Positions 15,713 to 54,800 of a stretch of DNA of 64,000 nucleotides are shown here, piece after piece. Within the stretch, counting starts at the first letter, position 1. Every line of letters begins with the position of its first letter. The translations under genes and the position numbers were made by a program. The stretch is from Craspedostauros australis (Eukaryota > Bacillariophyta > Bacillariophyceae > Mastogloiales > Achnanthaceae), in NCBI GenBank assembly GCA_026770025.1, contig JAMXDE010000058.1:1-64000 (forward strand), in the 5' to 3' direction. Under the pieces are notes generated by a model. That model worked only from the letters and a program-made list of their open reading frames with translations, was not told the DNA's origin and made no database searches.

Positions 15713-15713
<1 letters not shown>

Positions 15714-17139: not shown

Positions 17140-20100
17140 GTGCAACCCCTGATGAGCAGCAGAATCCTCTCACGCGTGGTAGCGGGGTGCTTGCAGGTCG
17201 TCGTCACGATGAGGCATCCTTGCTTGCACTACCTGCACCGCCCGACACAATACCCTGCAAGATGGTGCGTGTCGAGCTACTGCCGGTGTGTCTGGTGCGT
17301 GCAGCTGCTGTTGTTGATAGCAACGTGCACCTGTGGGACCCCAGCAATGGAATCGAACAGTGCGATCCCGGTGCCAACGTCAGCGCTACTCCCGACCGCT
17401 CCATCATACAGGCATGCCAGTCCTACGATAATCCGGTGCCCCTGGCAGCCGCCAATGCGAGCGCTGCGTGCATGATGTGCCCTGGCATTGGCATCTTGGC
17501 AATCCCCATTTCCGATGGCAGTCATATTCGGGCTGTCACACTGTATTGCCCAGAGCTCACTGTGACATTGATTTCTCCGCAGGCCATTGTGCGGCAAGGG
17601 GACAATCCGTTCCATTGGTACGTCCTGGACGATAGCCCCAACGGCGCGATCCTCACCTTTCAGGGCCCGACAGGTTCCGTGAGCACATCCATGCGGCGGC
17701 ACAACGGCCTCTACTACTTTGCAGCGGAGCATGGCGTGCAACCCGCGGCATTCGCTGTGCAGAGCGCTTCATCGGCACTGCAAGCGGAGCTTTGGCACAT
17801 GAGGCTCGGGAATGCTGGCATGCATCAACTGCAACAGCTGCCAGCGCACTGCTCCGGTGTACCCAGTGGCCTTGCCAAGGGCACGCATCCGTTGCGACAC
17901 TGTTCCGTGTGCGACCAAGCCCGGCGGATCAAGGCCACTCGAGGGCATACGGATTCCGATCCGATACCCATTGCTGGTGCTCACTTCCATGCTGACTACG
18001 GATTCATGCGGTCGTTGGACCAGCACTATGGCAGAGACTCGTCCCGCAATTCCACCAAGACACATCGGGTGGTGTAGTCCATTGAAGGCTTCACTTCATA
18101 TCCCCTTGTCACTGATGCCTACACCAGGTACACCTGGGTATTTCCTACCAAGACCAGGTCTCTGCCTGTGAACATCTTTACCAACCTCCTTCGGGAATTT
18201 GGATGCAAAGACGGTTGCGAGGCGGTGAGAGTGGACTCTGGAGGCGAGCTCGCGCGGTCTGGTGCTTTCCAAACCGCCATCCAATCGGCCGGCCACACTC
18301 TTGAGCTCACCAGGGCTGGGTGCTCATGGATGAATGGCAAAGTCAAGCGGCTCAATCGGACGTTCGGTGTGATGACGAGGTCGCTGCTGTATGCTTCAGG
18401 GTTGCATCCCAAGTTCTGGGCACGTGCCCTTACTCATGTGGTGTACATCAAGAATCGGTTGTGGCATTCGAGCATCGACACCACTCCATACCAGCTCCAA
18501 CATGGTGTCCAACCCAATCTTCGACACCTGCACGTGTTCGGCTCCAGAGTGATTGTACGCAAACCGGGGTATCCAGCCGCGAAACTGGACGTCCACACGT
18601 ACGATGGCATTTTTGTCGGCTACACTGCGACACCCACGATCCATGACTACTACGACTTGGATTCAGGGCGCATCAAATCGGCAGGCAATCTCATCTTTGA
18701 TGAGGCGCACTTCTCTGCTCATGAACGTCCGCTGGAGCCGCAACTCCTTTTTGATCTCGGGCTCCAGCTGGATCATGGAGGCACCGATGAACAACTCCCA
18801 GATCCCATGAAAGCCAAGGCCAGTGACATGAGTCTTCCGGTCGAGTGCGCCCGCCCTGTCACGTATGATGACAATGCTCTACATGCAGTGGCGGCAGCGT
18901 GCTCTACTGATGGAGTCGAGAGTCCCAATATCGTTCACATGACAGGAGATCCGTACGAGCGAGCGTTTCAACAGCGCCTCGTCCTTTCCGGCGACGATCC
19001 CACCGCAGGTCTGGAGTTCCAACATGATGAGCTATGCGGCAGATTGCAGCTCAAGGTGTGCAAGCCCGGCTCGGTTTCGGCGCGCATCCCAAGGTGGAGG
19101 TCCAGACTCAAGGGGTTGTATCTACTCGCCATTGACGCGCGTGAGATTTACTCTGTGCAGGATGTCGTGCAGGCCATACGTGATGCCCCGTCAGCAGGGT
19201 CGGGACGCATGCGATGCTGTGTTCGCCTTTGATGATATTCGCAATTCTCTCACGCAGCATGGCGTCCCGCAGCTGTATTTTGATCAACTTCGGCACGTGG
19301 GGTCCATTCTCAGCGATATTGCCAATGGCGCATCCTTTGGATGCACCGCCCAAGCTAACTCAGCGACATCTTCTTCAACGCGACGATTGGGACGAGTGGC
19401 AACAGGCGGAGTACAAGCAGCTGGATCAATACCAACATCAAGGCATGTTTGGCGATCCTATTGAGCCACCGCGGGATGTGGCAATCTTCGACTGGGTCTG
19501 GGTCTATGTCATCAAGGCACATGAGAACAACCGCAAGAAAGCTCGCGCCATGTGCGATGGATCAACCCATGGTGGCAGTGTACGCGTCTTTGGTCACACC
19601 TACGCGGCGACCCCAGACCTCACCGAGTTTCGCATCCTCGTTGCCATTGCTGCAGTGCAAGGACTGCTGGTGTATGGAGCTGACGTTGCCAATGCATTGC
19701 GGAGGCGCCTGCCAGTGCGCAGAGATACTACATGCGGGCGGATGATCAATTTTGCAACTGGTGGCAACACAAGTATGGCAAAGTTCTGGACCGACACGTG
19801 GTGGTACCCGTTCTCAATAATCTCCAGGGCCATCCTGAAGCGCCCAGACAGTGGAGTCTACATGTCAACCGCCTTCTCAAGGACATGGGCTTCACTGCCA
19901 CTACGCAAGCGCCGTGTTTGTACACTGGTGAGCTGTGCCAGAACAAAGTCTACGTACTTCGGCAGGTGGATGATTTTGCAGTGGCAGCACGCGATGAGGC
20001 TTCGTACACAAGATTCTGTGACATGCTCAATGCTCGTCTGAATCAGCCCATCACTCGGCACGGTCTCTTCGCACATTACAATGGACTGGATCTCATCCAG

Positions 20101-21066
20101 GCGCGGCGGCACACGACGGTGCACTGCTCTACCTACATTGACAAGGTGCTGGAACGGCACGATTGGCAAGGGCTGAAGTCTTCGCAACGCCTCCCCATGC
20201 GAGCGGATAATGGGCACGTGCGCCAGTTGGATCAGGCTGTTCTGCCTGACTCAGATACCGAGCGGCAACGTCTGCAGTCCGAGTTCTTCAACTACCGACA
20301 GGCCATTGGCGAGCTTACATGGGCCATGGTTTCGTGTCGGTCTGACATATCGTTCCCGGTGGTCAAGCTGAGTCAGTTCTCCATGAACCCTGCACGTGCA
20401 CACTACGAAGCCGTCAAGTATCTTTTTTGGTACATTGCGGCCACCAGGGAGTTTGGTGTCACATATTGGCGACAGTCCCCTCTCATGCAGCTTGCGGATG
20501 TTCCCAACCCGCGACAGCTGTCCCCTGCTGACGACAAGCGTCACAACACGACGGATCAGGCTACTATCCAGGCAACTTCTCTGTATGCCTACATGGATGC
20601 TGATTGGGGTGCCGACACCAAGCATCGTCGGTCTACCAGCAGCATTGCTTTCCTTCTAGGTGGCGCAGCTGTCGCATGGAAGACTCGAGTGCAGCCTACT
20701 GTCTCTCTCAGCACATCCGAGGTCGAGTTCCTTGCCGCCAGCGATGCTGGAAAGATGGCACTCTGGCTTCGGTCTATTCTTGATGAGATTGGCGTTGCGC
20801 AGAAGCATGCAACGCTCATCTACAAGGACAATCGAGGTGCGAGAATGATGGTTAACGCCAACCAGCCGACACGGAACTCCAGGCACATTGACATACGCAC
20901 ATTTGCCGTCAGCGATTGGGTGGACAGAGATCTTATCCTGATAACCAACGTGCCTTCGGACCTCAATGCTTCAGACGTGTGCACCAAACAGACGCCAGTG
21001 GTTCTGTTCTATTGGCATACGGATCTGCTCATGGGACGCATACCGCCTTTCTACGTTCACCAGTGA
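17118..21066 (+). pseudogene. Copia-type Pol (protease, integrase, RT, RNase H), copy 2
   Basis: Domain order is that of Ty1/Copia. Protease region with CDPGANVSAT; GAG-pre-integrase with LWHMRLGNAGM and HCSVCDQARR; integrase with HADYGF and VRVDSGGEL; reverse transcriptase with VLRQVDDFAVA; RNase H with YAYMDADWGAD, STSEVEFLAASD and KDNRGARMM. An in-frame TAG (18075-18077) splits integrase. The frame shifts near 19200, 19360 and 19690; the last looks like loss of one T in a TTTGCGGAG-type context. The third acidic residue of the integrase DDE triad, normally the E of NGxxER, is lysine in NGKVKRLNRT, so strand transfer should fail even without the breaks. The stop is at 21064-21066. No LTR pair was found. 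Confidence 0.9.
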
Positions 21067-21307
21067 GTGCTCCCCATGGAGTGTGGTGATGCCTGTCTTC
21101 TCTACAACAGAGTCGATTCTTTTCGCTAGCTTACGCTAGTGCGTGTGTGTGTGGGGGGGGGGGGGAGGCATCTGTACACCCGTACGATGACAGACGTCAT
21201 CATCAGCAGCAGCGAACACAACAAAAGTCATCACCATTCTGTGGCCATAAATCCATCATTAGCACCAAAGCACACACATCACTCTCTCACGATACTGACA
21301 CTAACTA
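21067..21307. other. Copia 3' flank, copy 2
   Basis: Same content as 3480-3720: small inverted repeat GCTAGCTTACGCTAG, GTGTGTGTG running into poly-G at about 21152-21165, and no gene. Confidence 0.5.
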
Positions 21308-22487
21308 CTGCAAGTATTGCCCCAACTAACCCTAACTGATACAAATTCATCACCCATTCATCCTTGATACAAATTCATCACACATTAACACCCTAGCCCT
21401 TGATACAAGTTCATCACTCACCAAACAACACACATTGGCTGATTTCTATTCCTATACCCCACCCCCAACCATGCAACTAACTCCTAAAAGTATTGCCGAC
21501 GCAACCCTTGATACAAATTCATCACAGATTAACCCTTGATACTTATTCATCACACATTAACACCCTAACTCTTGCCATCACTCACCAAACAACACACATT
21601 GGCCAATATCTATTCCTATACCCCACCCCCAACCAACCAACTAACTGCTACAAGTATTGCCCTAACTAACCCTTGATACAAATTCATCACATACTAACCC
21701 TTGATACAAATTCATAACACCCTGACCCTTTCCGTCACTCATGGCACAACACACATTGGCCGATATCTATTCCTATACCCCACCCCCAACCACCCAACTA
21801 ACTCCTGAAAGTATTGCCCAAACTAACCCTTGATACAAGTTCATCACACATTAACCCTTGATACAATTCATCACACATTAACACCCTAACACCCTAACCC
21901 TTACCATCACTCACCAAACAACACACATTGGCTGATTTCTATTCCTATACCCCACCCCCAACCACGCAACTAACTCCTAAAAGTATTGCCGACGCAACCC
22001 TTGATACAAATTCATCACAGATTAACCCTTGATACTTATTCATCACACATTAACACCCTAACTCTTGCCAGCACTCACCAAACAACACACATTGGCCAAT
22101 ATCTATTCCTATACCCCACCCCCAACCAACCAACTAACTGCTACAAGTATTGCCCAAACTAACCCTTGATACAAATTCATCACATACTAACCCTTGATAC
22201 AAATTCAGAACACCCTGACCCTTACCATCACTCACCATACCACACATATAGGCCAAAATCTATTCCTATACCCCACCCCCAACCATGCAACTAACTCCTA
22301 AAAGTAGCGCGCAACCTAACCCTTGATACATATTCATCACCCATTAACCCTTGCCATCACTCACCATACAACACACATTGGCTGATTTCTATTCCTATAC
22401 CCCACCCCCAACCGCGCAACTGACTCCTGCAAGTATCGCCTAACCTAACCCTTGATAGAAATTCATTGCACCCTAGCACCCTAACAC
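21308..22487. repeat. Satellite A array, block 1 (copy 2)
   Basis: Copy of 3721-5030, lacking one unit of about 130 bases. In copy 1 the text CCGCGCAACTGACTCCTGC occurs twice (near 4827 and 4959); here it occurs once (near 22412). Confidence 0.9.
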
Positions 22488-22554
22488 CCAAACATGCAGT
22501 GAACAGAAATTACCATCAGTCACCACACAAAAACACTGTCCGATATCCATCTCA

Positions 22555-22651
22555 GACACTCACACACACTCGCACACACTCGCACACACTCGCACACACT
22601 TGCACACACTCGCACACACTCGCACACACTCGCACACACTCACACACATAG
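22555..22651. repeat. CACACACTCG minisatellite (copy 2)
   Basis: Identical counterpart of 5100-5196. The 13-base ACAGCCCATGGAC minisatellite follows at 22795-22847, and the single satellite B unit at 23015-23159. Confidence 0.9.
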
Positions 22652-23159
22652 TTGGAACACACTGTGAAACGGCTGACATACTCTCATTACAATTCCATTA
22701 GCCATACACAACTTGTACGCTCAAATGGAATGCACAGCAACGGCCATCAATCACCACACATCACACAAAAGCAAACACTGGCCAATATCCATCCACAGCC
22801 CATGGACACAGCCCATGGACACAGCCCATGGACACAGCCCATTGACACACCCCACATTCCTTGAACACTGTCAGCACGGTTCACATGTCGTTATGCAAGC
22901 CACACACACACACATCTCACACACCCAAAAATGCAATGTACAGAAATTGCCATCACTTGCCACACAACACACACTTTCAGCCACTTCCGGCTTCTCTCTC
23001 TCTCTCTCTCTCTCTCAACACCTCTGATCGCTGTAGTCACACATCCAACAACGGCAGGAGACGTCCCACACCACGCATGACATGGCAGGAGCGTGGCACA
23101 TATGGCTGCCAACTCCATGATGCTCATTGCTACTGCCACACTCAAAGACTGATCATGAT

Positions 23160-24565
23160 ATGCCTTCCTTCCTTCCTGCCCATCCTGCTGTGGTGAATCC
23201 ATACTGCAGTGGTGCTGCCAACAGTGGCATTGTCATCAACAATGATAGCTGCTGTGATGGTGCCAACAATGCCAACGACACAGGCAATTGTGGTGCCACC
23301 AACCAGACCACTGATGCTGATACTGCTGCTCCCCCCCAGCAGCTCACGCCCCCTCCTCCACCTGTCCCTGAGGCAGCCGCGGTGCCAACAGCCGCTCCTG
23401 TTCCCACTGACTCTATGTGGAGGTCCCTCCTGCACCTGAGGGATCCAATCCTGCTCGATCCAAGGCTGCCACCACTGCCAGAGCCTCTCCGTTGCTATGA
23501 TGGGCCTGTGCTCGCTCCTGACAACGTTGTGACTCCTGACAAGGGTGCAGATCTCCCTGGCTATTCCGTACCTCCTGCAGATGTCGAGCTGGATCAGGTG
23601 TACGGCGACCACGCCCACAACAATGACAACAATGACGGCTCCCACCTCCATGGTGGTGTTGGCGGAGATGCTGTGTGGCAGCAGTGCTGGGCTTGCATCG
23701 TCGTTGCATTCTCCCCACAACAATACTTGGTCCCACATTGTTGCATTGGTCACAGATTCCTTCACCTCCTCTCTCTCTCTCTGGAGCTCAGGGGGATTCG
23801 CGACTGGCTGTGGAACTCAGAGAAACTGCTGTTGCCTGCGGCAGTGGCTCTCCAGACCACCCCTGGTGTGTGTGGCCGCAGCAATGTCCGGAAGTGGCTG
23901 CCCTCTTGCATGGATTTGTGGGAGACCAGCAAGTTTGCCATGCTGGTCGAGGCCACCGAGCCAGAGCTGCGCCAGCATGCCATTCTATCTGGTGGCACCC
24001 GCAACGATGCGCCACATGCCCGTGCCTTCAAGTCAAAGGTTCTCTCTGGTTGTCTGCATATGCTGCGGTTCGCACCTTCACACACATCTTGTGAAGGTGG
24101 TGATCTCCTCTTGCCAGCAGAAATCGACACCAAGTCTGGTCTGCCCGTGGAGGAGACACTGAGACTCAGGCATCCTGTCATGTCATACGTGATCCTGACA
24201 TCAGTGGCAACGGGACAAGAGCATTCGAGCCATATGACGGTCCTGCTCCCACCCCTGTCCCTGTCAAGATCACCAAATGAGGTGGTTGGATCAGTTGCTT
24301 GCAAACTCTCCGGGGAGGCTGGTCCGGTCCAGGCGGTCTTGATGCTGTCCATCTGGGAAACTGGTTCCTGCGGTTTTGGCAGCAAGTCCAAGCATCTCCG
24401 CAAGGAGGTTGCTGCTTGGACCAACTGGCTCTCCAACTCCCATCCTCCATGGGCTGCCTACCGCGCCATGATGCCATGCCGCCTCATTGCTCTGGACAGG
24501 CGAAAGAGACGCGTCGAAGATGTTCAAGACTCCGAACCTGGACAGAGGGCATCTTTTGTGTTAAT
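23160..24565 (+). pseudogene. RT-associated N-terminal segment, RT core missing (copy 2)
   Basis: Counterpart of 5705-7110 with the same frame breaks: the Pro-rich leader, DLPGYSVPP, LELRGIRDWLWNSEK and SNSHPPWAAYRAMM then CRLIALD, followed by abrupt loss of RT homology. Because the breaks and the deletion are identical in both copies, the element was already dead before the 17.5-kb block was duplicated. Role assignment rests on remembered family consensus blocks and is moderate only. Confidence 0.5.
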
Positions 24566-26025
24566 TTCTACTGGAGCATCGGCAGTTTTCCAGCATGCCG
24601 AAATATGTGGTGTGGCAGGTGCTATTGCTATACTTCGGACAACCACCTTGGCTTTCATCACTTCCATCTTCAAGACGGCAACACAAAACGCAAGCGATCT
24701 GGACAAGAGAATGTTGATCAGCTGGGGTGCCAGAAGCGTTGATCGTGCAGCATACAGCCAAGCACGCGATGGTGACCACCTACTGATTCCTTTCGAGCGC
24801 GATTATTGCATATTTGTCAAGCTGAAGCACAGACAACCCATCACACTCAACGCTGTTGACAAACGGATTATGGGTGCCATCCGGAGAGTCAATCTGGATG
24901 CTTTCTGGAGTCGAGCCTCCACCACCGCCAAGGCGAACACCAGCAGAGCCAAACAGATGATTAAGGAAGCACAAGAACTCGGTCTGGAGGGACCATTCGA
25001 AGCCAAAGGTCCGCTACCCGCATACGACCATTGCAGTTATCAAGTGGCCATTCTAATGGTACTCGCGTTGCTGAAACCGGGACAATACTCCAAAACTCAC
25101 ATCCAGTACGACACTATCCGCAAATTGCGTGCCACCTACTCCAACCAAGTTCGCGCGTCAGCTGCCTCCACACAACAATCATTGAGCATGGGCAATCAGA
25201 ATGATAAGTACCAATGGATCGCTCATGACCCATGTGGCTCCTTCTGGTTCTCCAGGTTCAACGAGGGCTGTTGACACTGAATGGGACAGGACTGGAGACC
25301 CAACAAAGGCTTCTCCACAGCACTTGTATTGGCAATCTTGGACATGGCACAACAACAATTCGACGAATGTGAACACAACAACCCCAGAACAACATCGATG
25401 GGCTGCTTTCATGACCTGTGCTATGTTATCCTACACCATATCTCTTTGGGGTTCTGAGGCACAGATGTTGGACCCCAGGGCCACCATCAAGGAACAATCA
25501 TGCCAAAAGCCAGACGACCATATCACCATTGTACTACTACAAGGCAAATTCAAAGGCAAACATCAGTCATACAAACATATCATCCCTCTATCCAAGCGAA
25601 CCAAATCGGGTATCAACGTCCAAGGCATCATCAACACACCCCTGAGTGTGAAGCAGAAGTCGCAACAATATCACGGTCCCGCGATTTCATTGAAACAAGG
25701 TACCCTCTACACTCCAAAAGATCTCAACGATGCACTCCATGATGTCTTGGAGGGTATATGGGAGACCAACCAAGGGTTGTTTCCTCCTGACATCACCAAT
25801 GCATCCAAGCTACGCGAAAGCTACCACTGTTTTCAATCTTTCAGGCAAGCCTCGGACACACGCGCTCTGGAGCAAAAGGTGAGCGAAAGGTGACACCAAA
25901 CTGGTCAATGTTGGGAGAAACCAGGACCAGGAGGAGGACGGAGAAACGAAACCAACATGCGATTCCACTATGCCCAATTCGATCTGCTTGTCCGACCGTT
26001 TCTACGCTACACCACCTCCATGTGA
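24566..26025 (+). pseudogene. Tyrosine-recombinase-like protein, frameshifted (copy 2)
   Basis: Counterpart of 7111-8570. The Cys/His-rich start ends at GCQKR (24742). The middle frame carries NLDAFWSRASTT and CGSFWFSRF, and the last frame SLWGSEAQML and SDTRALEQKVS. The in-frame TGA is at 25891-25893 and the final stop at 26023-26025. The only substitution I noticed against copy 1 changes Ala to Glu (KAAQE to KEAQE) at 24966-24968. Confidence 0.6.
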
Positions 26026-27645
26026 TGGGTGGTACTATTGGGGGAATCAAGAAGTGCCCAAAAACAGTTTGGAATGGGTCATCAATATCCAGTGCAAACT
26101 GGTGGACTGATTTGATGTTGGAAGGCAGAAGCCACACTCGTGATAGCATTCGCTACATAAGGGCCAACACCTATATGCCAAATCATAGTCTGTGCATGAC
26201 ATCAAACCAATACTTAACAAGCATGGATTGACATGGTTGTACATGCAAGCATGCTCAACAACCATCCCAATAGCACTCATTTGACACTGTGATGAACACT
26301 ACTACTCAAACCTGCATTCCTCGTTGTACCCTTCTCTTCTTACAAACGATGACAGACAGCGTTCAACTCAAAGGCCATGATTGCTGCACCTCCCAAGATT
26401 ATTCGTCACATGTTCAGAGACTATTCATCACACCTTTGGACATTATTCATCACATGATTGTCCACTATCCATCACACATTCGAGTCCTACTCATCACACT
26501 CGTGAACCAGGAAAAACAGCCCGTCCTCATGAATCAAGAACAACCATGATGACGCTCGACAGGATGTCCTGACACTAACCCAAACAAGACAACGACACAA
26601 ACAAAGACGTCAGCAGGGCAGTGGGCGAGAGCTTCATTCCATCTGGGGGGACAGCATGCGCCCCCCCTACGGACAAAACAACTGCAGGTTTGGAACTTCA
26701 GAAAGGGTCACTACGACCGCAGGTTTGGGACATCACTGAGGGTGACACCAATCGTAAACAAGTGGAAACGAGATGTCACGAGGTCGAGAGCCGAAATACA
26801 TGACAAGATAGCATGCAGGACTGTGGACCCCTACCACACATATGTGGAAGGGTACAAGTGTGCAGATGCGGACGATGAAGCATCAGGATGAGGGCATGAT
26901 AGAAGGTGCAGGAGGATGCATGAGCAAGACACATCGAATATGTTCAGGAATACAACAATGCCTCGCTATGGCACCACAGAGAACGCCAACAATGAAATTG
27001 AAATTGAAAGAGAGAGTGAGAAAGAGAGTGAGAGTGAGGATGTGCTCACAGTTCTAAAACGGTATGATCTAAAAACAGCTTAGATTCATGCTGACTATAA
27101 CCCTTGATTTCCAACAACTGTCAAGTAGGTAACCCATTGGTCCTACCAAGCTCACACATGACTCACACATGACTCACACACTGCTCACACACTGCTCACA
27201 AATGGCTCACACACTGCTCACATACGGCTCACACATAAAGGTTCATGCTGCGGATAGTCCAAAATGCAAGGCACAGCCATTTCCATCACCCACCACATAA
27301 TTCACACTGAGCCATATGTAGTCACAGCCCATACACACACTCCAGCCACCTTGCACACTGACAACATGGTTGACAATGGTTGACACACAGTTCTGCAAGC
27401 TATATACAACTCACTCTACCAAAATGCATTGTACAGGAATGGCCATCACTCAACCCACAACAACAACTGGCCAATCTCGACCCCCAAGCACATGCACACA
27501 CTCCAAACACCGCACACACTGTCCACATGGTTGACACATGGTTGGAACATAGCTCACTCATGATGTTGCAAGCCAAACACAACTCATACACCCAAAAATG
27601 CAATAAACATCAATTGCCATCGCTAACGGCACACCGAAAATTAGC
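26026..27645. other. Non-coding segment (copy 2)
   Basis: Same text as 8571-10190: TTCATCACA motifs, a GA-rich run and CTCACACATGA repeats. No gene is recognised. Confidence 0.6.
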
Positions 27646-28970
27646 AGATATCTATTCCTATACCCCACCCCCAACCACGCAACTAACTGCTGCAAGTATT
27701 GCCCAAACTAACCCTTGATACCAATTCATCACACATTAACCCTTGATACAAGTTCATCACAAATTAACCCTTGCTACAAGTTCATAAAGCACCAACCCTT
27801 TTCATCACTCACCATACAACACACATTGGCCAATATCTATTCCTATACCCCACCCCCAACCAACCAACTAACTGCTGGAAGTATTGCCCAAACTAACCCT
27901 TGATACCAATTCATCACCCATTAACCCTTGATACAAATTCATCAGCCATTCACCCTTGCCACAAGTTCAGAACACCCTGACCCTGACCATCACTCACAGC
28001 ACAACGAAAATTAGCAGATATCTATTCCTATACCCCATACCCTAACCCCAACCACGCAACTAACTGCTGCAAGTATTGCCCAAACTAACCCTTGATACCA
28101 ATTCATCGCACATTAACACTCTAACAAATTCATCAGCCATTCACCCTTGCCACAAGTTCATAACACCCTGACCCTTGTCATTACTCATGGCACAACACAC
28201 ATTGGCCAATATCTATTCCTATACCCCATACCCTAACCCCCAACCACCCAACTAACTCCTACAAGTATTGCCCAACCTAACCCTTGATACCAATTCATCA
28301 CACATTAACACCCTAACAAATTCATCAGCCATTCACCCTTGCCACAAGTTCAAAATGCTGGAACCCTTTTCATCACTCACCATACAACACACATTGGCCA
28401 ATATCTATTCCTATACCCCACCCCCAACCACGCAACTAACTGCTGCAAGTATTGCCCAACCTAACCCTTGATACCAATTCATCACACATTAACACCCTAA
28501 CAAATTCATCACCCTATTAACCCTTGCTACAAGTTCATAAAGCACCAACCCTTTTCATCACTCACCATACAGCGCACATTGGCTGATATCCATTCCTATA
28601 CCCCATACCCTAACCCCCAACCACGCAACTAACTCCTAAAAGTATTGCCCTAAATAACCCTTGATACAAATTCATCATCGATTAACACCCTAGCCCTTGA
28701 TACAAATTCATCACACAGCAACACCCTAGCCCTTGATACAAATCCAACACACATTAACACCCTAGCCCTTGATACAAATTCGTCACACAGCAACACCCTA
28801 TTAACCCTTGCTACAAATTCATAACACCCTGACCCTTACCATCACACACAGCACAACGAAAACTAGCTGATATCCATTCCTATACCCTAACCCCATACCC
28901 TAACCCCAACCATGCATACCCTAACTAACTCCTAAAAGTATTGCCCAACCTAACCCATGATACAAATTCA
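27645..28970. repeat. Satellite A array, block 2 (copy 2)
   Basis: Counterpart of 10190-11515 with the same CCCATACCCTAACCCC inserts. Confidence 0.9.
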
Positions 28971-29109
28971 TCACACATACACACACATACACGTGCTCAC
29001 ACACGTGCTCACACACACACACACTCACACACTCACACACTCACACTCACTCACACACCCAAAATGGAATGCACAGCAACTGCCATCACTCACCACACAG
29101 CACCCACTT

Positions 29110-32100
29110 GCAGTCACTTCTGGCTTCTCTCTCTCTCTCAACACCTCTGATTGCGGTAGTCACACATCCAACAACGCCAGGAGGCGCCCCACACCACATA
29201 TGACATGGCAGAAGCGTGGCACTTGTGGTTGGCAACTCCATGATGCTCGTTGCCACACTCAAAGATGGATCATGATGGATGATGGATGATGGATGATGGA
29301 TCACGAATTCTCACACATGCAGACACTTCTGGCCCCTCTCACAACACCATCCGCTGCAATCCTCGCACATCTCACAACGTTTGCACATGCCCAATGGCAT
29401 GCATGACATGCCACATCCATATCACATCTGGTCAGAAACGACATGATGCTCATTGTTACCGTCACACTCAAACATGATCCAAGAAGGATCACAAAATCAC
29501 CCACTTGCAGTCACTTCCGGCTTCTCTCTTAACACCTCCGATTGCGGTAGCCACACATCCAACATCCCATACACACACCCCATGGCACATGTAATACACC
29601 ACATCCATGTTACATGTGGTCAGCAATGACATGACGCTCATTGTCACACTCAAAGATGGATCATGGTGGATGATGGATCACAAAACCTCAAACTTGCAGA
29701 TACAATGCTAACCCTGACGGCTAACCCTAACTCTCACAAGACGATCAACTACAATATTTCACACATCCAACATCGCATACACACGCCCCATGGCACGCAC
29801 AATACACAATACACAATACACCACATCTGTATCACATCTGGCCAGCAACGACATGATGCCCATTGTCACACTCAAAGATGGACCATGATGGATTGCAAAA
29901 CCTCAAACTTGCTGATACTTCTGGCTTACCCTAACTCTCACAACACCATCAGCTGCAATCCTTGCACATCTCACAACGCTCGCACACGTCGCATGGAACA
30001 CATGACATGCCACATCCATATCACATGTGGCCGGCAATGACATGATGCTCGTTGACATACTCAAAGATGAACCAAGATGGCTCACAAAATCACATACTTG
30101 CAGACACAATGCTAACCCTAACGGCTAACCCTAACTCTCACAACACCATCAACTGCAATCCTTGCACAACCACCAACAATCACACATGTCCCATGGCACA
30201 CCTGGCATGGCACATCCGTAACACATCTGGCCAGCAACTACAGGATGCTCATTGTCACAGCCACAGTAACACTCAAAGATGGACCATGATGAATCCCAAA
30301 ATCTCACACTTGCTGATACTAACCCTAACAGCTAACCCTAACTCTCACAACACCATCAGCTGCAATACTCGCACATACCACAACGCGTACACACGCCCCA
30401 TGGCATGCACAATACACAATACAACACATCCATATCACATGCGACCGGCAACGCCATGATGTTCGTTTTCACACTCAAAGATGGACCATGATGGATGATG
30501 GATGATGGATGATGGATGATGGATGATGGGGATCACAAACTCTCACACATGCAGACACTTCCGTCCCCTCTCACAACAACACCAACAACTGCAATCCTCG
30601 CACATCCCACAACACTCACACACGCCCCATGGCACGTACAATACACAATACACCACATCCATATCACATGTGGCTGGCAACGACATGATGCTCGTTGTCA
30701 CTGTAACAGTAACACTCAAAGATGAACCAAGATGGCTCACAAAATCACATACTTGCAGATACAATACTAACCCTAACCCTAACGGCTAACCCTAACTCTC
30801 ACAACATGATCAACTGCACTAATCGCACATCCAGCATCACTCGCACATGTTTGATGGCACGCATGACATGGTACATCCGTATCACATGCGGTCGGCAACT
30901 CAAAGATACTCGTTGTTGCCTTCACACTCACATGTGGATCATGGTGGAGCACAATTTCTCGCACATGCTGTCATTTCCAGTCCCTCTGCAAACACCATCT
31001 AATGCAATGTATCACACATCCAACATCGTATGCACACGCTCCATAGCTATAGCACGTACAGCGTACAGCGTACAATGTACAATACACCACCTCCATGTCA
31101 CACGTGGCTGGCAACTCCACGATGTTCGGTGTCACAGTCACGCTCAACAGATGGACCATGATGGATCACACAATCTCGAATTATGCAGATGCTTCTGGCC
31201 ACTCTCACAACACCATCAACTGTGATACTCGCGCACCCCACAACGCTCACACACGCACCATGGCACATACAATACACCATACACAATACATCACATCTGT
31301 ATCACGTGTGGCTGGCGACTCCAGGATCTTCAGTTTTGCACACAAACCTGGATCATGATGGATCAAAATAATATCTCACACTTGCACACATTTCCAGATC
31401 CTCTCTCACCACCACCAATTGTGGTGATGGCACAACCAACAACGCTCACACACGCCCCATAACACTATTGGCACGATACAAGCGTGGCACATGCGGCCAG
31501 CAACTCCAAGATGCTCATTGTTACTGTCACAGTAACACTCAAAGATGGACCATGGTGGATCATGTTGGATCACAATAATATCTCACAATTGCAGTCACTT
31601 CCAGCCCATGTCTCAACACCATCAACAGCAATATACTTTACACATCCAACAATGGCCGCACTCGCCCATACCATGCATGACATCGACCAAGTGTATCACA
31701 TGCGGCCAGCCACCCCAACGTGCTCATTGTCACACTCAAAGATGGATCATGATGGATCGTGTTGGATCACAATAATATCTCACAATTGCAGTCACTTCCG
31801 GCCCATATCTCAACACCTCCAACTGCAGTAATCACACATCCAACAATGGTCATACACACTTCGAAGCTACCTTGACGTGGCACCAAGCGTGGAACATACA
31901 GCTGGCTACTCAATCATATTCATTGTCATGCTCAAGGATGGACCATGATGGATCACAATATCTCACACTTGCACACATTTCCGGATACTCTCTCACCACT
32001 GCCAATTGCTGTAATCGCACATCTCACAACGTTCACACGTGCCCCATGGCACGCGCAATACTCCACCACCATATCACATGCAGCTGGCAACTTCACGATG

Positions 32101-32175
32101 TTCATTATCAGCCTCAAAGATGGACCATTTTGGATCACAATATCTCACACTTGCAGTCACTTGCAGTCATGTGCA
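29110..32175. repeat. Satellite B array (copy 2)
   Basis: Counterpart of 11655-14720 with the same units and GGATGAT runs (about 29275-29300 and 30489-30529). A spacer follows at 32176-32859, with the four-copy ACTGCCCATAC minisatellite near 32297-32345. Confidence 0.9.
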
Positions 32176-32859
32176 GTCACTTGCAGCCCCTCACTCACTG
32201 GCCAACACGCACACATAGACAGTGCACACAATGCACACAGTGCACACACACTGATCACATGGTTCCCTGCAAACTTAAATGGCCAAATCACAACACACTG
32301 CCCATACACTGCCCATACACTGCCCATACACTGCCCATACAGTGCCCATACAGTGCTCACAACAAGGAAATGCACAAAAACACAAGATACAACATCACTA
32401 ATAACCCGCAACCCTCCATACACGAGTAGCAAAGGCACACAAGACACACAAGGCATGCACAGAGACAAGGCCATGGCACAACATGTCACCAACTGCTCAC
32501 TACACACCCATGCATGATAACCAACCACACAAAAGAACAGGGCAATTTCCAGCACCCATCATACACTAAGACACTGCTCACTGCAGGCCAAAGCACGATA
32601 ATCCAGGACACAAAAGCATCACCCTAACAATTGACAGCACCAATCATACATCAAGACACAGCTCACTACACCCCAATGCACAATAACCCCAAAACAATGT
32701 TGCTAATAGCCCCTAACACACTGGCAGCAAAAACATGCACACACACAAGTGCCCGAACAATGCCCACAAAGTCAAAACTTGATCACACAACACGCCATTG
32801 CACGATAACCCACAATACAAGGACATTACTACACCCACGACACACATGAGCAGCAATGG

Positions 32860-33069
32860 CACACACTCACACTCACACTCACACTCACACTCACACTCAC
32901 ACTCACACTCACACTCACACTCACCCTCGCACTCAAACACACACTCACTCACACTCAAACACACACTCACTCACACTCAAACACACACTCAAACACACAC
33001 ACACACACACTCAAACACACACACACACACACTAACCCTCGCACTCAAACACACACTCAAACACACACT

Positions 33070-33128
<59 letters not shown>

Positions 33129-33137
33129 ACTCACACA

Positions 33138-33182
<45 letters not shown>
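32860..33182. repeat. Long CA/CACACT/CTCAAACACA tract (copy 2)
   Basis: Counterpart of 15393-15712. It has additional CACTCA units at the start and an internal CTAACCCTCGCACTCAAACA block near 33032 that copy 1 does not have at that place. Confidence 0.95.
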
Positions 33183-33185
<3 letters not shown>

Positions 33186-33567
33186 CACAGCGAACAACAC
33201 ACAACGCACAACGAACAACGTACAGACCAATGACTGTACACACACACGAACACACAATCCAACAAGTGACAGACCAATTATCCACAATCCAGTCCACTAC
33301 GGACGACGTACGGACGGTAATGTACACCAAGTCTCCATTTTCCGCAACTCCCAAATGTACCACCAAATGTCCATGTCCCCCACCTCCCAAAATACCATTA
33401 AAACCCCAAAATAGTGACAAACTTCAACACCCCACAGCTCGCTCAATATCCACCTGTTGACAAAATCGAGCGTCACTACAGGTGCCCAAAAGCCAACTCC
33501 ACACCACCAACAACAAAAAAGCCAAAAATATCAACCCTGACTTTCACAGGTTCCGGCTTTTATAAAC

Positions 33568-33585
33568 CCTAACCCTAACCCTAAT
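33568..33585 (+). repeat. Interstitial telomere-like array (CCCTAA)3
   Basis: CCCTAACCCTAACCCTAA marks the exact end of the duplicated block and the start of the higher-order repeat region. It is the longest perfect telomere-type run in the window. Read on the + strand this is the C-rich strand, the polarity found at a left chromosome end. Confidence 0.85.
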
Positions 33586-33596: not shown

Positions 33597-36500
33597 TGTC
33601 CACACGTGCAACCAATCAAACCCTAATGTACGAGGATTTAACACGGTGACGTACGACGGCCAGACCGAAGTTTGGGTCCATTGACGGACGACGTGCAGAC
33701 GTTTGTATGGGCACGCAATACACACGGTCGAAGGACGGACGTTTTTGTATGGAAAATGTTCATGTTCCGCAACCCCACGTACGACGGTCAGACCGATGTT
33801 TGGGTCTGTTGACGGACGACGTACAGACGTTTGTATGGGCACACGTCTACGTACGGTCGACGTACAGACGTAAATGTATGGAAAATGTCGATGATCCGCA
33901 ACTCTCCGAAAGTGCGGACGAATGTTCATCATCCGCAACTCCCAAACAACACGAGATACTGCGAGCCACGCGATACACCGTGTTAAACATGTACACCACG
34001 CTACACCATGATGAACACATGTACACGTACATCTATGTGTACACACACACGCACCACGTCCATACCTACACATCAACACCTCTACCATCTTTAACGGACC
34101 ACTACAACGTGAGATATCGATGATCAAAGTACTCAACATTAACCAGTACTTGCAATACACAGTGTCATGTACATGTAAGCACACACACATGTTGACCATG
34201 ACCATGCGCACATGTGACAACAAGATCCACACTCTGAATCAACTTGGTGATGGAGATAGTGATGCATGAGTACAACACAAACAACATGTGATAACACGTG
34301 CAACCGTGTTAATGTGAGATGAACATCGTCAATGGCAGATGAACATGGTCAACGGCAAATGAACTATCTGTCAACACCAAATGAACTATCTGTCAACACC
34401 ATTCCAACTACTGGAGGATGGCACAAGTCCCATGAAATGGCTGACTTGTGGGGGAGGAGGGGGAAGTCAACACCAAATGAACTATCTGTCAACACCATTC
34501 CAACTACTGGAGGATGGCACAAGTCCCATGAAATGGCTGACTTGTGGGGGAGGAGGGGGAAGTCAACACCATCAACTGTGATACTCACACATCCACGTGC
34601 TCACACACACGCACACGTGCACACTGCCACACCGTACAACCAGCCACAACACACAACAACACGTGAGACTGTGATGCAACAGTCAACACCAAATGAACCA
34701 TCTGTCAACATCAAATGAACTATCTGTCAACACCATTCCAACTACTGGAGGATGGCACAAGTCCCATGAAATGGCTGACTTGTGGGGGAGGAGGGGGAAG
34801 TCAACACCATTCCAACTACTGGAGGATGGCACAAGTCCCATGAAATGGCTGACTTGTGGGGGAGGAGGGGGAAGTCAACACCATCAACTGTGATACTCAC
34901 ACATCCACGTGCTCACACACACACTCCCAAACAACACGAGATACTACGAGCCACGCGATACACCGTGTTAAACATGTACACCATGCTACACCATGATGAG
35001 CACATGTTCACGTACATCTATGTGTACACACACACACACCACGTCCATACGTACACATCAACACTTCTACCATCATCAACGGACCACTACAGCGTGAGAT
35101 ATCGATGATCAAAGTACTCAACATCAACCACTACGTGCAATACACAGTGTCATGTACATGTGAGTACACACACATGTTCACCATGACCATACACACGTGT
35201 GACAACAAGAACCACACTCTGAATCAACTTGGTGATGGAGATAGTGATGCATGACTACACCACAAGCAACATGTGATAACACGTGCAACCGTGTTAATGT
35301 GAGATGAACATGGTCAATGGCAGATGAACATGGTCAATGGCGGATGAACATCGTCAATGGCAAATGAACCATCTGTCAACACCAAATGAACTATCTGTCA
35401 ACACCATTCCAACTACTGGAGGATGGCACAAGTCCCATGAAATGGCTGACTTGTGGGGGAGGAGGGGGAAGTCAACACCATTCCAACTACTGGAGGATGG
35501 CACAAGTCCCATGAAATGGCTGACTTGTGGGGGAGGAGGGGGAAGTCAACACCATCAACTGTGATACTCACACATCCACGTGCTCACACACACACACACA
35601 CTGCCACACAGTACAACCAGCCACAACACAACAACAACACATGAGACTGTGATGCAACAGTCAACACACAATGAACTATCTGTCAACACCATTCCAACTA
35701 CTGGAGGATGGCACAAGTCCCATGAAATGGCTGACTTGTGGGGGAGGAGGGGGAAGTCAACATCAAATGAACTATCTGTCAACACCATTCCAACTACAGG
35801 AGGATGGCACAAGTCCCATGAAATGGCTGACTTGTGGGGGAGGAGGGGGAAGTCAACACCATCAACTGTGATACTCACACATCCACGTGCTCACACACAC
35901 ACACAATGCCACACGGTACAACCAGCCACAACACACAACAACATGTGAGACCGTGATGCAACAGTCAACATCAAATGAACTATCTGTCAACACCATTCCA
36001 ACTACTGGAGGATGGCACAAGTCCCATGAAATGGCTGACTTGTGGGGGAGGAGGGGGAAGTCAACACCATCAACTGTGATACTCACACATCCACGTGCTC
36101 TCACACACACACACACTGCCACACCGTACAACCAGCCACAACACACAACAACATGTGAGACCGTGATGCAACAGTCAACACCAAATGAACTATCTGTCAA
36201 CACCATTCCAACTACTGGAGGATGGCACAAGTCCCATGAAATGGCTGACTTGTGGGGGAGGAGGGGGAACAACACCATCAACTGTGATACTCACACATCC
36301 ACGTGCTCACACACACACACACACTGCCACACAGTACAACCAGCCACAACACACACGATAACATAGTATGCCACATGTGACTATGACACTGCACACCATG
36401 ACACATAATATCTCACAAGAATATGGGATACAACAGGCTCAACAGTGTTGACATGACAGTGCATGGATACAGGTCAGTAGCTGTGATCACTAGTCTTCGA

Positions 36501-38765
36501 TTGAGTTGAAATGTGACTTTCTGAAATAACACGGGGGTGCAATTAAGGTTACAGGTTACTGTAAACCCTAACAACCAATCAAACCCTAATGTACGAGGAT
36601 TTAACACGGTGACGTACGACGGCCAGACCGAAGTTGGGGTCGATTGTCGGATGACGTACAGACGTTTGTATGGGCACGCAATACACACGGTCGAAGGACA
36701 GACGTTTTTGTATGGAAAATGTCGATGATCCGCAACTCCCCAAAAGTGCGGACGAATGTTCATCATCCGCAACTCCCAAACAACACGAAATACTACAAGC
36801 CACGCGATACACCGTGTTAAACATGTACAGCACTCTACACCATGACAAAGGCATGTTCACGTACATCTATGTGTACACACACACGCAGCGTGTCCATACC
36901 TACACGTCAACACTTCTACCATCTCCAACGGACCACTACAACGTGAGATATTGATGATCAAAGTACTCAACATCGACCAGTACTCGCAATACACAGTGTC
37001 ATGTACATGTAAGTACACAACCGTGTTCACCATGACCATACGCACATGTGACATCAAGAACCACACTCTGAATCGACTTGGTGATGGAGATAGTGATGCA
37101 TGAGTACAACACAAACAACATGTGATACCACGTGCAACCGTGTTAATGTGAGATGAACATGGTCAATGGCAGATGAACATCGTCAATGGCAGATGAACAT
37201 GGTCAATGGCGGATGAACATTGTCAATGGCAAATGAACTATCTGTCAACATCAAATGAACTATTGTTAACACATTCCAACTACAGGAGGATGGCACAAGT
37301 CCCATGAAATGGCTGACTTGTGGGGGAGGAGGGGGAAGTCAACACCATTCCAACTACTGGAGGATGGCACAAGTCCCATGAAATGGCTGACTTGTGGGGG
37401 AGGAGGGGGAAGTCAACACCATCAACTGTGATACTCACACATCCACATGCTCACACACACACGCACACCACTACACACACACCACTACACACATGATAAC
37501 ACAGTATGCCACATGTGACTATGACACTGCACACAATGACACATAGTATCACACAAGAATATGGGATACACCATGCTCAACAGTGTTGACATGACAGTGC
37601 ATGGATACAGGTCAGTTGCTGTGATCACCTGTCTTCGATTGAGTTGAAATGACACTTTCTGAAATAACACGGGGGTGCAATTAAGGTTACAGTTACTGTA
37701 AACCCTAACCCTATGTACGAGGATTTAACACGGTGACGTACGACGGCCAGACCGAAGTTTGGGTCGATTGTCGGATGACGTACAGACGTTTGTATGGGCA
37801 CGCAATACACACGGTCGACGTACGGACGTTTTTGTATGGAAAATGTTGATGATCCGCAACTCCCTGAAAGTGCGGACGAATATTCAACATCCGCAACTCC
37901 CAAACAACACGACATACTACGAGCCACGCGATACACCGTGTTAACCATGTACAGCACTCTACACCATGATGAAGGCATGTTGACGTGCATCTATGTGTAC
38001 ACACACACGCACCTCGTCCATACGTACACATCAACACTTCTATCATCTTCATTGGACCTCTACAACGTGAGATATTGATGATCAAAGTACTCAAGATCAA
38101 CCAGTACTTGCAATACACAGTGTCATGTACATGAAAGCACACACACATGTTCACCATGCCCGTACACATGTGTGACAACAAGAACCACACTCTGAATCAA
38201 CTTGGTGATGGAGATAGTGATGCATGAGTACAACACAAACAACATGTGATAACACGTGCAACCACGTTAATGTGAGATGAACATCGTCAATGTGAGATGA
38301 ACATCGTTAATGGCAGATGAACATTGTCAATGGCAAATGAACTATTGTCAACATCAAATGAACTATTGTTAATATCATTCCAACTACAGGAGGATGGCAC
38401 AAGTCCCATGAAATGGCTGACTTGTGGGGGAGGAGGGGGAACAACACCATTCCAACTACAGGAGGATGGCACAAGTCCCATGAAATGGCTGACTTGTGGG
38501 GGAGGAGGGGGAAGTCAACACCATCAACTGTGATACTCACACATCCACGTGCTCACACACACACACACACACTGCCACTATGCACACAATAGCACATGGT
38601 ATCACATGTGACTATGACACTGCACACCATGACACATAGCATCTCACATTAATGTGGGATACAACATGCTCAACAGTGTTGACATGACAGTGCATGGATA
38701 CAGGTCAGTAGCTGTGATCACCAGTCTTCGATTGTGTTGAAATGACACTTTTTGAAATAACACGG
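33597..38765. repeat. Higher-order subtelomeric repeat region
   Basis: Modules recur in fixed order. A CCCTAATGTACGAGGATTTA block leads into CGTACG-rich text (GACGTACGACGGCCAGACCG, GACGTACAGACGTTTGTATG). Next come CAACTCCCAAACAACACGA and GCCACGCGATACACCGTGTT, an ACATCAACAC and GAGATATCGATGATCAAAGT block, the GAACATGGTCAATGGCAGAT minisatellite, and hairpin/G-tract modules. Last is a tail with ATACAGGTCAGT and TGAAATAACACGGG that runs back into telomere-like CCCTAAC. Full starts lie near 33620, 36590 and 37716 and a partial one at 34925; a fragment is at 16201-16485. The region ends near 38765, where the text after AAATAACACGGG becomes unique. Confidence 0.9.
34403..38535. repeat. Fourteen hairpin-plus-G-tract modules
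   Basis: Each module reads CAACTACTGGAGGATGG, then the inverted repeat CACAAGTC ... GACTTGTG, then GGGGAGGAGGGGGAA. Between the 8-base arms lies CCATGAAATGG with CT, so a second CCAT/ATGG stem can form with a GAA loop. Hairpins start at about 34422, 34518, 34756, 34828, 35427, 35500, 35712, 35808, 36017, 36223, 37290, 37369, 38398 and 38473. Adjacent modules are spaced 72 or 96 bases apart. The modules are almost identical, while flanking DNA varies. No protein function is suggested. Confidence 0.9.
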
Positions 38766-46232: not shown

Positions 46233-47402
46233 ATGCCTCGCGTCAAGCATGGCGGCTCGAAGAAGCCACAGGCGTCCTTCGTGATCAGAATGGTGGCCGC
46301 AGGGTTCATGCTGATGCTTGGATCGGTCGTGTACCTCAGCTTCTCGATCTCCCACAGCATCAACAAGCTGGAATCGTCGAGCACGAGCTCCCAACAGGCA
46401 CCGGCGCTGCGTCAGGCTCAGCGGCTGATGCCGGAGACGCAACCTGCAGCACGTGCAAGCGCAGGAGGCGGAGCATTCATCCTGGGACCGCCAGCCGATG
46501 CTATCGCACTCATCAAAAAGCGTCTGGAATGGCTGGACACCATCACGTTTTACGAAGACAAGGAGGACATCGACACGAGGGCCAAGATGGCCTATTTGGA
46601 GATGCTGAAGAGCACCGTGTCCGCGACGGCCTACGGAGCCAGCGAGATGTCCGTCATTCCTGCCTTGGGCAAGCGGAGGTCAAGGGTCAAGCCCTACAAC
46701 GAGAAGAGACGCCAGCAGGGAAACGACTGGACGTACCTTGGTTACACGATGACTGGCACTGCGAGGCTCAATAATGTGCGCGATCTGCTGATGGACGTCT
46801 TCAAGAACAACATCCCCGGAGACTACATCGAGACGGGCGTTTGGCGCGGGGGCAGCAGCATCTTTGCCAGGGGCGTCATCGAGGTCTTCGGACAAGGGCA
46901 TCGCCACTCCTACGTTTGCGATTCCTTCCAGGGCCTCCCTCCTGGTGACAAGAACATCCACAAGGGAGACACCGGCTGGGACAACACGCCTTACCTTGAG
47001 GTGTCGAAGGAGCACGTGATGGGATTCTTCCGTGAAGTCAACCTCCTCAACGAGGAGAAGGTGCACTTCGTCAAGGGATTCTTCAAGGATTCGATGCCAG
47101 GACTCAGCAAGCAGGTTGGCAAGTTCGCGGTCATGCGATTGGACGGAGACATGTACGAAAGCACGGTCGATGTGCTGTACACGATGTACGACAAGCTCAG
47201 CATCGGCGGTTACCTCATCATCGATGATTGGTGGGCCACGAAGAACGTGCCTTTCCCAGCCAAGGACGCGTGCGAAGACTTCTTCCTGGTTCACGGCATC
47301 AACCCCGAGATCATCCCTGTCGACAACATGTCGATCTATTGGAAGAAAACGGAGGAGGTCAACATCCAGTACTGGCGTTACGAGCAGAAGAAGTTCAAGT
47401 AG
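46233..47402 (+). CDS. TylF-type SAM-dependent O-methyltransferase with N-terminal membrane anchor
   Basis: A 389-residue single-exon protein. Residues 1-15 are basic (KHGGSKK), residues 16-40 form one hydrophobic segment (FVIRMVAAGFMLMLGSVVYL), and 41-95 are a Ser/Ala/Gln-rich stalk. This gives a type II membrane topology typical of Golgi enzymes. The catalytic domain (about 165-385) has the macrocin O-methyltransferase pattern: IETGVWRGGSS (199-209, SAM loop), VCDSFQGLP (228-236), VKGFFKDSMP (280-289), RLDGDMYEST (302-311) and YLIIDDWWA (327-335). The acidic residues in the last two motifs are those that bind a metal ion in the family. The natural acceptor, perhaps a sugar hydroxyl on a glycan or a secondary metabolite, cannot be read from sequence. 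ATG 46233 is chosen because the basic segment and anchor follow it directly. Confidence 0.9.
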   Translation: MPRVKHGGSKKPQASFVIRMVAAGFMLMLGSVVYLSFSISHSINKLESSSTSSQQAPALRQAQRLMPETQPAARASAGGGAFILGPPADAIALIKKRLEWLDTITFYEDKEDIDTRAKMAYLEMLKSTVSATAYGASEMSVIPALGKRRSRVKPYNEKRRQQGNDWTYLGYTMTGTARLNNVRDLLMDVFKNNIPGDYIETGVWRGGSSIFARGVIEVFGQGHRHSYVCDSFQGLPPGDKNIHKGDTGWDNTPYLEVSKEHVMGFFREVNLLNEEKVHFVKGFFKDSMPGLSKQVGKFAVMRLDGDMYESTVDVLYTMYDKLSIGGYLIIDDWWATKNVPFPAKDACEDFFLVHGINPEIIPVDNMSIYWKKTEEVNIQYWRYEQKKFK

Positions 47403-52931: not shown

Positions 52932-54800
52932 TTACCATCCCAATAGTTGCAATCGCAGAGATTCGAATAGTGGATGTGCCAAGGGCTTGGTGAATACATC
53001 GGCCATCTGGTCCAACGTGTCGACCTTTTCAATGGTGATGAGCCCTTTGCTGACAGCTTCATGGAAGTGATGGTATTTGACATTGATGTGTTTGGTACGA
53101 GGACGCATTGTTGGAGTCCATCGAGTCGTCTCGGTATCCGTGACTGGGGACTCGGTGGAAGATACCAATCAACAAATGGCGCCAACAACAAGTTCGCGCC
53201 GAAAAACACAACTCCTCCATCATCCTACGACTTCTGCCATGTTCATTGAAGCTTCAGATCCTCAGACGATGATGCAACATCTTCAAGCATCGCCATCCTT
53301 TGTTCGGTCAGCAAATCGACGACATCAGAGTCATCGGTCATCCTGTTCGATCACCGCTCTACTAAAACTGAGAGCCTGCACCTCGTGCTTTCGCACGATG
53401 CATGCATGCCCTCGTTCAATCTCGCACTGCAGTAGAAGACGCAAGTCATGTAATCATAAATCAACCTTTCACACTATTTCAAGACGCATTCTGGGTGTGT
53501 TTGTGAGTTCGAGGGCACCGGAGTTGTCCTCAAATGCTGTGCAGTGAACTTTTGGCGGAGAAGTGTTGAATGACGATATGTGCTGCTTAATTTCATTGAT
53601 GAGGTGTATGATGGGTATAACCTCTCATAGAGCTTGGCTGAGAGCCATGTACTTGGCTTCTGTGGTGCTGAGTGCGACTTCTGTTTGCAGTTTGGAGTTC
53701 CATATGATGGGGAATCCTTCATACAGGACAACGTGTCTGGTACAACTTTTGCCGTGTTGGGGTCGTTGTTGGCTTGTGTGAAGCCTCCTGCAAAGTCTGC
53801 ATCAGCATAGCAGTGAATGGAGTCATTGGTAGATGAGATGTGGAGTCCCATATCCCATGTGTGAGCGAGGTATCGTACAATCCATTCAATGGCATCTTTG
53901 TGTGACTTCATCGGATGAGCCATGAAGCGTGCGCATTGATGGACTGTGAAGCAGATGTCAGGTCTTGTCGATCATGTGAGGAAGTTGAGCATCCCCACAA
54001 CTGACCGATATTCGAATTGCCAAGTAGCAGCAGGGCCACTGGTGTCCTTGTATAGGAGTGGTTTGACGGCTGGCGTCGAATTGGTTCGTCCTGGTGAGTC
54101 AGGATTGATCTTGGCTGCTCGTATGATTCGATCTATGAGTTGCGGTTGTGTGAGTGTGATGGTGTCATCAGTACGTTGGATGTGAACGCCCAGATACTCA
54201 TTCATGTTGCCTTCATCGGTTAGTGTGAACCGTGCCTTGAGGCACTCGATGATGTCATCGATCTTGTGTTTGCGTGGGCCAATGATGATGGTGTCATCAA
54301 CGTACAGCAGAATGGATGTGTTGTCCTTGTAGAGAAGGCATTCATCGACTTGGCTTTGCTGGAATCCATGCTGCATCAGGCTGTCAACCACATGCCGATG
54401 CCATACCAATGCTGCCTGCTTGGTGCCAGACAAATTCTTCTTGAGTTGGAGAACGTGAGACCTGTTGTCTCCGTCCACATTGCACCCCTGAGGTGTTTGC
54501 ATGAAGATGTCACATTCCACATCCGCTTGTGGGAACGCCAGAACGAAGTCAATTTGAAGAGTGTTCCAGTGCTGTTTGATGGCCATGGTGAGGAATATCT
54601 GGATGGTGGACCATTGCACAACAGGTGCGAATGTTTCCCAGTAGTTGACACCATGTTGTTGCTCTCCTCCATGCACGCATAGCCGTGCTTTCCACTTGTA
54701 GATTTCGCCGGTTGCAAGTCTGCGTTTGCGTTTGAATGACCAGACGGCTTTCAGGATCTTGTGCCCTTTTGGCACATGATTGCGTTGGACGACCTCTCAA
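52932..54800 (-). pseudogene. Copia reverse transcriptase, RNase H and C-terminal tail
   Basis: The RT frame (54775-53972) contains ATGEIYKWKARLCVHGG, NYWETFAPVVQWSTIQ, QIDFVLAFPQADVE and the catalytic YVDDTIIIG, all standard Copia RT blocks. It passes with a break into RNase H (53923-53474), with YADADFAGG followed by a frameshift. The tail RTKHINVKYHHFHE, LDQMADVFTKPL and LRLQLLGW (53120-52932) is the classic end of Copia Pol. At least three frame breaks separate these parts, so no intact enzyme is encoded. Confidence 0.85.

Follow-up and report, generated by a model that had tools for sequence, protein, structure and literature searches.

An Arrayed 65-bp Module in the Telomere-Associated Repeats of Craspedostauros australis: a Possible Protected Protein-Docking Site Rather than a Random Repeat

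A 65-bp module, arrayed in 14 copies in a 64,000-bp stretch of Craspedostauros australis DNA (the window; positions 1 to 64000 of contig C56), resembles, as judged from its letters, a protected site at which a chromosome-end protein might dock more than it resembles a random repeat. On the variation among its copies, the likelier, although not the sole, reading is that the module is under constraint within the telomere-associated repeat to which it belongs. The modules were read on 26 of the 90 contigs of the assembly (74.8 Mb, with TTAGGG telomeres). A short site that hardly varies and is arrayed near the ends of so many contigs provides a handle for finding a chromosome-end protein of this organism, and with it one could ask whether protein binding, rather than exchange alone, shapes subtelomeric satellites.

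RESULTS

Module array and repeat unit

The motif CACAAGTC-N13-GACTTGTG matched the window 14 times in a span from 34422 to 38498, always on the plus strand and always as one identical 29-mer (i.e., CACAAGTCCCATGAAATGGCTGACTTGTG), while the maximum count over 100 shuffles of the window was 0. Directly 3' of the 29-mer, every copy carries an exact GGGGAGGAGGGGGAA (Table 1). The first-pass annotation had described 14 near-identical modules of hairpin plus G-tract here, and that description holds, with all 14 hairpins and all 14 G-tracts exact. Sequence conservation begins 21 bp ahead of the hairpin, and the conserved block measures 65 bp, plus ~30 bp past the G-tract behind array-end copies. In the repeat unit, a telomere tract or a short CCCTAA remnant is followed by the core, then by 20-bp and 22-bp minisatellites, and then by the modules, the spacer of which contains a CA microsatellite. 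The modules are spaced as 72- to 74-bp tandem copies or at ~204 to 261 bp, with 96 bp among the other distances. A protein-coding repeat was ruled out by these spacings (72, 74, 96, and 204 to 261 bp) and by the frames: no reading frame is shared across copies, and the longest frames differ between core units.

TABLE 1 Coordinates of the repeat features in the window
Feature	Position	Strand	Basis or remark
Short internal CCCTAA tract, ahead of first core unit	33567..33584	+	Direct reading
Core, telomere-associated unit 1	33605..34316	+	Landmark 33630; outer limits approximate
20-bp and 22-bp minisatellites before module 1	34317..34400	+	Family used as control
Module 1 (65 bp: ATTCC..hairpin..G-tract)	34401..34465	+	Exact 29-mer then GGGGAGGAGGGGGAA
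Module 2	34497..34561	+	Exact 29-mer then GGGGAGGAGGGGGAA
Module 3	34735..34799	+	Exact 29-mer then GGGGAGGAGGGGGAA
Module 4	34809..34873	+	Exact 29-mer then GGGGAGGAGGGGGAA
Module 5	35406..35470	+	Exact 29-mer then GGGGAGGAGGGGGAA
Module 6	35480..35544	+	Exact 29-mer then GGGGAGGAGGGGGAA
Module 7	35691..35755	+	Exact 29-mer then GGGGAGGAGGGGGAA
Module 8	35787..35851	+	Exact 29-mer then GGGGAGGAGGGGGAA
Module 9	35995..36059	+	Exact 29-mer then GGGGAGGAGGGGGAA
Module 10	36205..36269	+	Exact 29-mer then GGGGAGGAGGGGGAA
Core, unit 2	36575..37150	+	Landmark 36593; outer limits approximate
Module 11	37273..37337	+	Exact 29-mer then GGGGAGGAGGGGGAA
Module 12	37347..37411	+	Exact 29-mer then GGGGAGGAGGGGGAA
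Core, unit 3	37700..38274	+	Landmark 37717; outer limits approximate
Module 13	38377..38441	+	Exact 29-mer then GGGGAGGAGGGGGAA
Module 14	38449..38513	+	Exact 29-mer then GGGGAGGAGGGGGAA
Downstream conserved box GTCAACACCATCAACTGTGATACTCACACATCC, as behind other array-end modules	38514..38546	+	Direct reading

It had also been proposed that the module is conserved while the neighboring text varies. This applies to the minisatellites, the spacer, and the core, and it fails for the conserved stretch downstream of array-end modules, where 124 of 132 copies of the box CAACACCATCAACTGTGATACTCACACATCC are exact. At a threshold of at least 22 of 31 letters, the box CAACACCATCAACTG...CACATCC had 202 matches in the fetched subtelomeric loci (132 directly 3' of a module, 11 where the preceding module or G-tract is altered, and 59 elsewhere) and none in 140 kb from 14 contig starts without telomeres. 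The 59 matches that follow no module or G-tract show that the box is common to an older, diverged satellite further inward. This satellite (~180 to 200 bp) was observed at positions 11684 to 14400 of the window and in loci L020, L021, L027, and L028, often with telomere-like TAACCCTAAC pieces immediately 5' of its box. As for an origin of the module from it, the box is shared and homology of the hairpin part was not established. A mobile insertion with target duplication (GTCAACACC on both sides) is not supported, no empty site being present among the contexts seen.

The remainder of the window has features of its own. A tandem duplication of ~17.5 kb covers positions 3714 to 16000 and 21300 to 33500, whose repeat arrays and reading frames occur a second time at an offset of 17.45 to 17.59 kb. 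Copia-type pieces (SH3_retrovirus and RVT_2) occur at 18168 to 21063, ahead of the second duplication copy (the scan covered the side of that copy), and a second Copia-type element lies at 53972 to 56361 on the minus strand. There are also a TylF-type methyltransferase frame (46233 to 47402) and a MORN-repeat frame (61035 to 62012).

Distribution and orientation in the genome

Within three mismatches, the assembly contains 375 copies (200 on the plus strand and 175 on the minus strand), while the same search with the reversed sequence returned none. Among the 100 of these 375 matches that were listed, all are exact and all lie no more than ~22 kb from a contig end. A landmark in the core matched 62 times on 26 contigs (38 plus and 24 minus, with both strands on no contig); the plus matches all lie within 38 kb of the contig start, and the minus matches all lie within 40 kb of the contig end. 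From the nearer contig end, the landmark points inward in 61 of the 62 cases, the exception being a match in the middle of C86 (36 kb versus 39 kb from the ends), which points inward from the farther end. On 21 of the 26 contigs, one match lies 337 to 504 bp from the contig end; this distance is 1.4 kb on C15 and >10 kb on C32, C34, C56, and C86.

A terminal CCCTAA array adjoining the repeat was seen at C3, C5, and C11 only; the start of C56 is without a telomere, and exact modules were absent from 14 fetched contig starts showing no telomere. The G-tract shares its strand with CCCTAA, i.e., it is opposite the telomeric G-strand. The repeat is therefore present in multiple copies near many ends and in a fixed orientation to the telomere, as is characteristic of telomere-associated repeats. 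The label "subtelomere," which had been assigned from the window, is confirmed by the repeat abutting terminal CCCTAA arrays on other contigs, and the proposed search at other chromosome ends found the module genome-wide, on 26 contigs rather than on one, which goes against the refuting case named in the annotation of a module confined to this contig.

An unusual array was observed at positions 8599 to 22342 of C47, where 13 landmarks are 1,141 to 1,143 bp apart and have one private variant in common, and where 12 modules all carry the change G19A (one unit in L038). The array looks like the product of amplification of a single unit, and a circle as the source of the amplification would be a guess.

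Sequence variation among copies

Around the landmark matches on 26 contigs, we fetched 251 copies (i.e., about two thirds of the 375; threshold, at least 45 of 65 letters), and we analyzed 248 of them, one with a damaged G-tract, after dropping three truncated copies. The 29-mer is exact in 239 of the 251 copies, has a single change in 11, and is truncated in 1. No variant was found in 248 copies within the 22 bp at module positions 13 to 34 (GGAGGATGGCACAAGTCCCATG); one variant inside this otherwise invariant stretch occurs on C5, outside the fetched sample. Module position 12, by contrast, is split between A (151 copies) and T (96 copies), with G in a single copy.

Without this A/T site, the module had a pi of 0.0036, compared with 0.09 for the 20-bp repeat, 0.06 for the 22-bp repeat, and 0.10 for 16 bp of the spacer; the respective Tajima's D values (-2.4, 0.1, -1.5, and -0.4) presume independent copies and serve for comparison only. 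The core diverged by a mean of 7.1% between contigs (398 pairs). At equal identity thresholds from 0.75 to 0.90, the number of rare variants per site and copy ranged from 0.0041 to 0.0015 in the module, from 0.0116 to 0.0083 in the 22-bp repeat, and from 0.0126 to 0.0052 in the 20-bp repeat (i.e., ~3 to 7 times more in the neighboring minisatellites).

The A/T state agreed in 48 of 97 pairs of tandem neighbors 72 to 74 bp apart (chance expectation, 0.52) and in 50 of 85 pairs of copies 200 to 262 bp apart. It tracks the left flank, with 38 A and 7 T behind TTAACAC and 78 A, 83 T, and 1 G behind CAACACC. Since both states are common and tandem neighbors agree at the level of chance, the recent spread of one copy fails to explain the invariance. 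Local homogenization as the sole cause is hard to square with the A/T pattern, while frequent wide exchange could suffice.

The main, if somewhat doubtful, alternative to constraint is neutral concerted evolution, by which a nonfunctional subtelomeric minisatellite would be kept identical by frequent exchange between ends, most strongly where the copies are longest and most alike. The variable copy number of the arrays (72- to 74-bp tandem copies and the 1,143-bp unit array in C47) and the rarity of module variants besides those at the A/T site are consistent with it, as are the continuity of the conserved stretch, which takes in downstream satellite sequence, and a gap to the minisatellites that narrows to ~3-fold at some thresholds. 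However, both minisatellites (20 and 22 bp) in these units are still 3 to 7 times more variable, differing flank alleles persist 1 to 7 bp from the module, and tandem neighbors share A/T alleles no better than by chance. The first-pass annotation had left the choice between homogenization and selection; that pair of explanations is supported, and the lower variation relative to the minisatellites, together with the A/T pattern, leans toward selection.

Hairpin and pairing

The 29-mer is predicted to fold with an 8-bp outer stem, a 4-bp inner stem, a GAA loop, and a 2-nt CT bulge. Its energy is -11.8 kcal/mol as RNA (z, -5.0 on the plus strand and -3.5 on the minus strand) and -7.9 kcal/mol as DNA (z, about -5.3 and -5.2 on the two strands). 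In a 53-nt stretch with the flanks and the G-tract, the plus-strand RNA is predicted to form the same hairpin with an energy ordinary for its composition (z, -0.9), and the minus-strand RNA has a z of -3.2. The 29-nt stem thus folds as had been described, although in the 53-nt context the plus-strand RNA does not stand out.

Genome-wide variant searches, which covered 28 of the 29 positions and which most double changes would escape, turned up 12 distinct single changes, distributed over 27 copies (a truncated copy not counted); at position 15, no variant was present in the 251 fetched copies. Five changes affect unpaired positions (A14G, C20T, T21A, T21C, and T21G; 9 copies), and seven affect paired positions (A11T, T17G, G19A, G22C, A23G, T28A, and G29A), with G19A accounting for 12 copies of the one C47 array. 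Of the distinct changes, 1 lies in the 5' arm and 6 lie in the 3' arm; these numbers are small, and such an asymmetry would not be expected if the module acted purely as a hairpin. As six of the seven stem changes break a pair and only A23G keeps one (a wobble pair), the variation does not decide for or against pairing. No compensatory pair was found in the 251 fetched copies, which contain too little variation to reveal one.

It is improbable that the arrays are transcribed and that the 12-bp hairpin acts as a structured element in telomere-associated RNA, on either strand. The stability of the 29-nt fold on both strands would fit such an element, and changes at unpaired positions are above expectation (5 of 12 changes at 4 of 28 positions, P = 0.02; 9 of 16 when counted by contig and place, P = 0.0001). 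Both excesses, however, hang on position 21, a bulge base, alone (2 of 9 without it; P = 0.26). The broken pairs and the ordinary plus-strand energy with flanks also argue against this role, as do the lack of any double change in the 251 fetched 29-mers (one truncated copy aside) and the lack of an Rfam match at gathering score in the window. The structural reading of the first-pass annotation is thus retained as a predicted fold and weakened by the pair-breaking changes and the single bulge base.

G-tract and array junctions

The quadruplex potential ascribed to the G-tract must be reduced: no tract has four runs of at least three G, so that a three-tetrad quadruplex is impossible within one tract and only runs of two G fit. 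The letters would allow a form with two tetrads or a purine mirror repeat; GGGGGAGGAGGGGG reads as a perfect purine mirror repeat and has a G4Hunter score of 3.14. At five junctions, which fall into three kinds according to their flanks, the repeat family meets other DNA in the 3' arm of the hairpin or in the G-tract. These junctions were observed at L001 1492, L032 2213, L020 1296, L049 3420, and L021 about 2500 (script orientation).

The mirror repeat and the placement of the junctions would fit a DNA-structure element, i.e., a cruciform or a structure of the purine tract at which forks stall or which favors recombination between ends. We regard such an element as very unlikely: one tract allows two tetrads at most, the G-tract varies more than the hairpin 5' half, and the junction count covers module sites only and hence indicates no enrichment.

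DISCUSSION

We tentatively favor the view that the modules are arrayed, sequence-specific protein-binding sites in telomere-associated repeats, which may work as the SPE2 arrays of Plasmodium do, with no known relation in sequence. A sequence-specific DNA-binding protein would recognize the block, and the recognized part is probably the bipartite palindrome CACAAGTC-N13-GACTTGTG together with the GGAGGATGG flank and the purine tract. Through the numerous sites at each end, that protein would be loaded and would mark the end, and it might, for example, recruit subtelomeric chromatin or drive telomere-ward RNA. Copies would spread by exchange between ends, and variants would be purged by selection.

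Protein binding would be the simplest account of sequence constraint at sites that are arrayed, oriented, and specific to ends. The constraint itself is supported by arrays near contig ends, at all module positions that were listed or read, by the fixed orientation of the repeat, and by less variation than in neighboring repeats of similar copy number, with conservation measured within one genome. Several points count against protein-binding sites. The repeats that recombine most could be the ones homogenized most; the functional limits are blurred, since the downstream box is as constant as the module; the A/T site is tied to the left flank; and stem-breaking variants exist (e.g., in the 12-copy C47 array), as does the one change on C5 within the 22 bp. 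A composite chromosome-end element, in which a dedicated end-binding factor would read the palindrome and the purine mirror tract and also guide exchange between ends, with junctions forming inside, appears unlikely.

In the X and Y' elements of yeast, where telomere tracts lie between units, and in alpha satellite, which carries the CENP-B box, constrained boxes that bind proteins are embedded in end or satellite repeats that vary. The module would resemble these systems as a constrained box in a variable repeat. No described family of such design was recognized in the open-licence literature, as judged by titles and the opening parts of abstracts.

The human 61-29-37 repeats, as portrayed in one report, are TERRA promoters in CpG islands with NRF1 sites (PMC6600276). 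They are likewise short subtelomeric tandem repeats, one unit of which is of similar size (29 bp), but the 65-bp module contains no CpG and lacks their CpG-island character. The avian PO41 repeat is also a conserved subtelomeric tandem repeat with C-rich and G-rich strands; in the account available, the pairing of its RNA is attributed to long transcripts that contain inverted repeat tracts (PMC4301066), whereas each module unit has a predicted hairpin of its own.

In the telomere-associated repeats of Plasmodium falciparum, arrays of the SPE2 motif are bound by the ApiAP2 protein PfSIP2 and occur with lncRNA-TARE; about 15 motifs are reported per TARE 2-3 region, and of 777 predicted sites, 94% are located either within subtelomeric repeats or ahead of subtelomeric var genes (PMC2829057, PMC3218844). 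As far as these accounts describe it, SPE2 is, like the module, a bipartite palindrome that is present many times at a chromosome end (about 15 versus 14 in the window) and keeps its position between ends. SPE2 differs in also being located upstream of var genes, while the constant block of the module is longer and its binding protein is putative. The likeness is one of design, the sequences not having been compared and no relation being known. We therefore take PfSIP2/SPE2 as a working analogue, with no claim of membership in that system.
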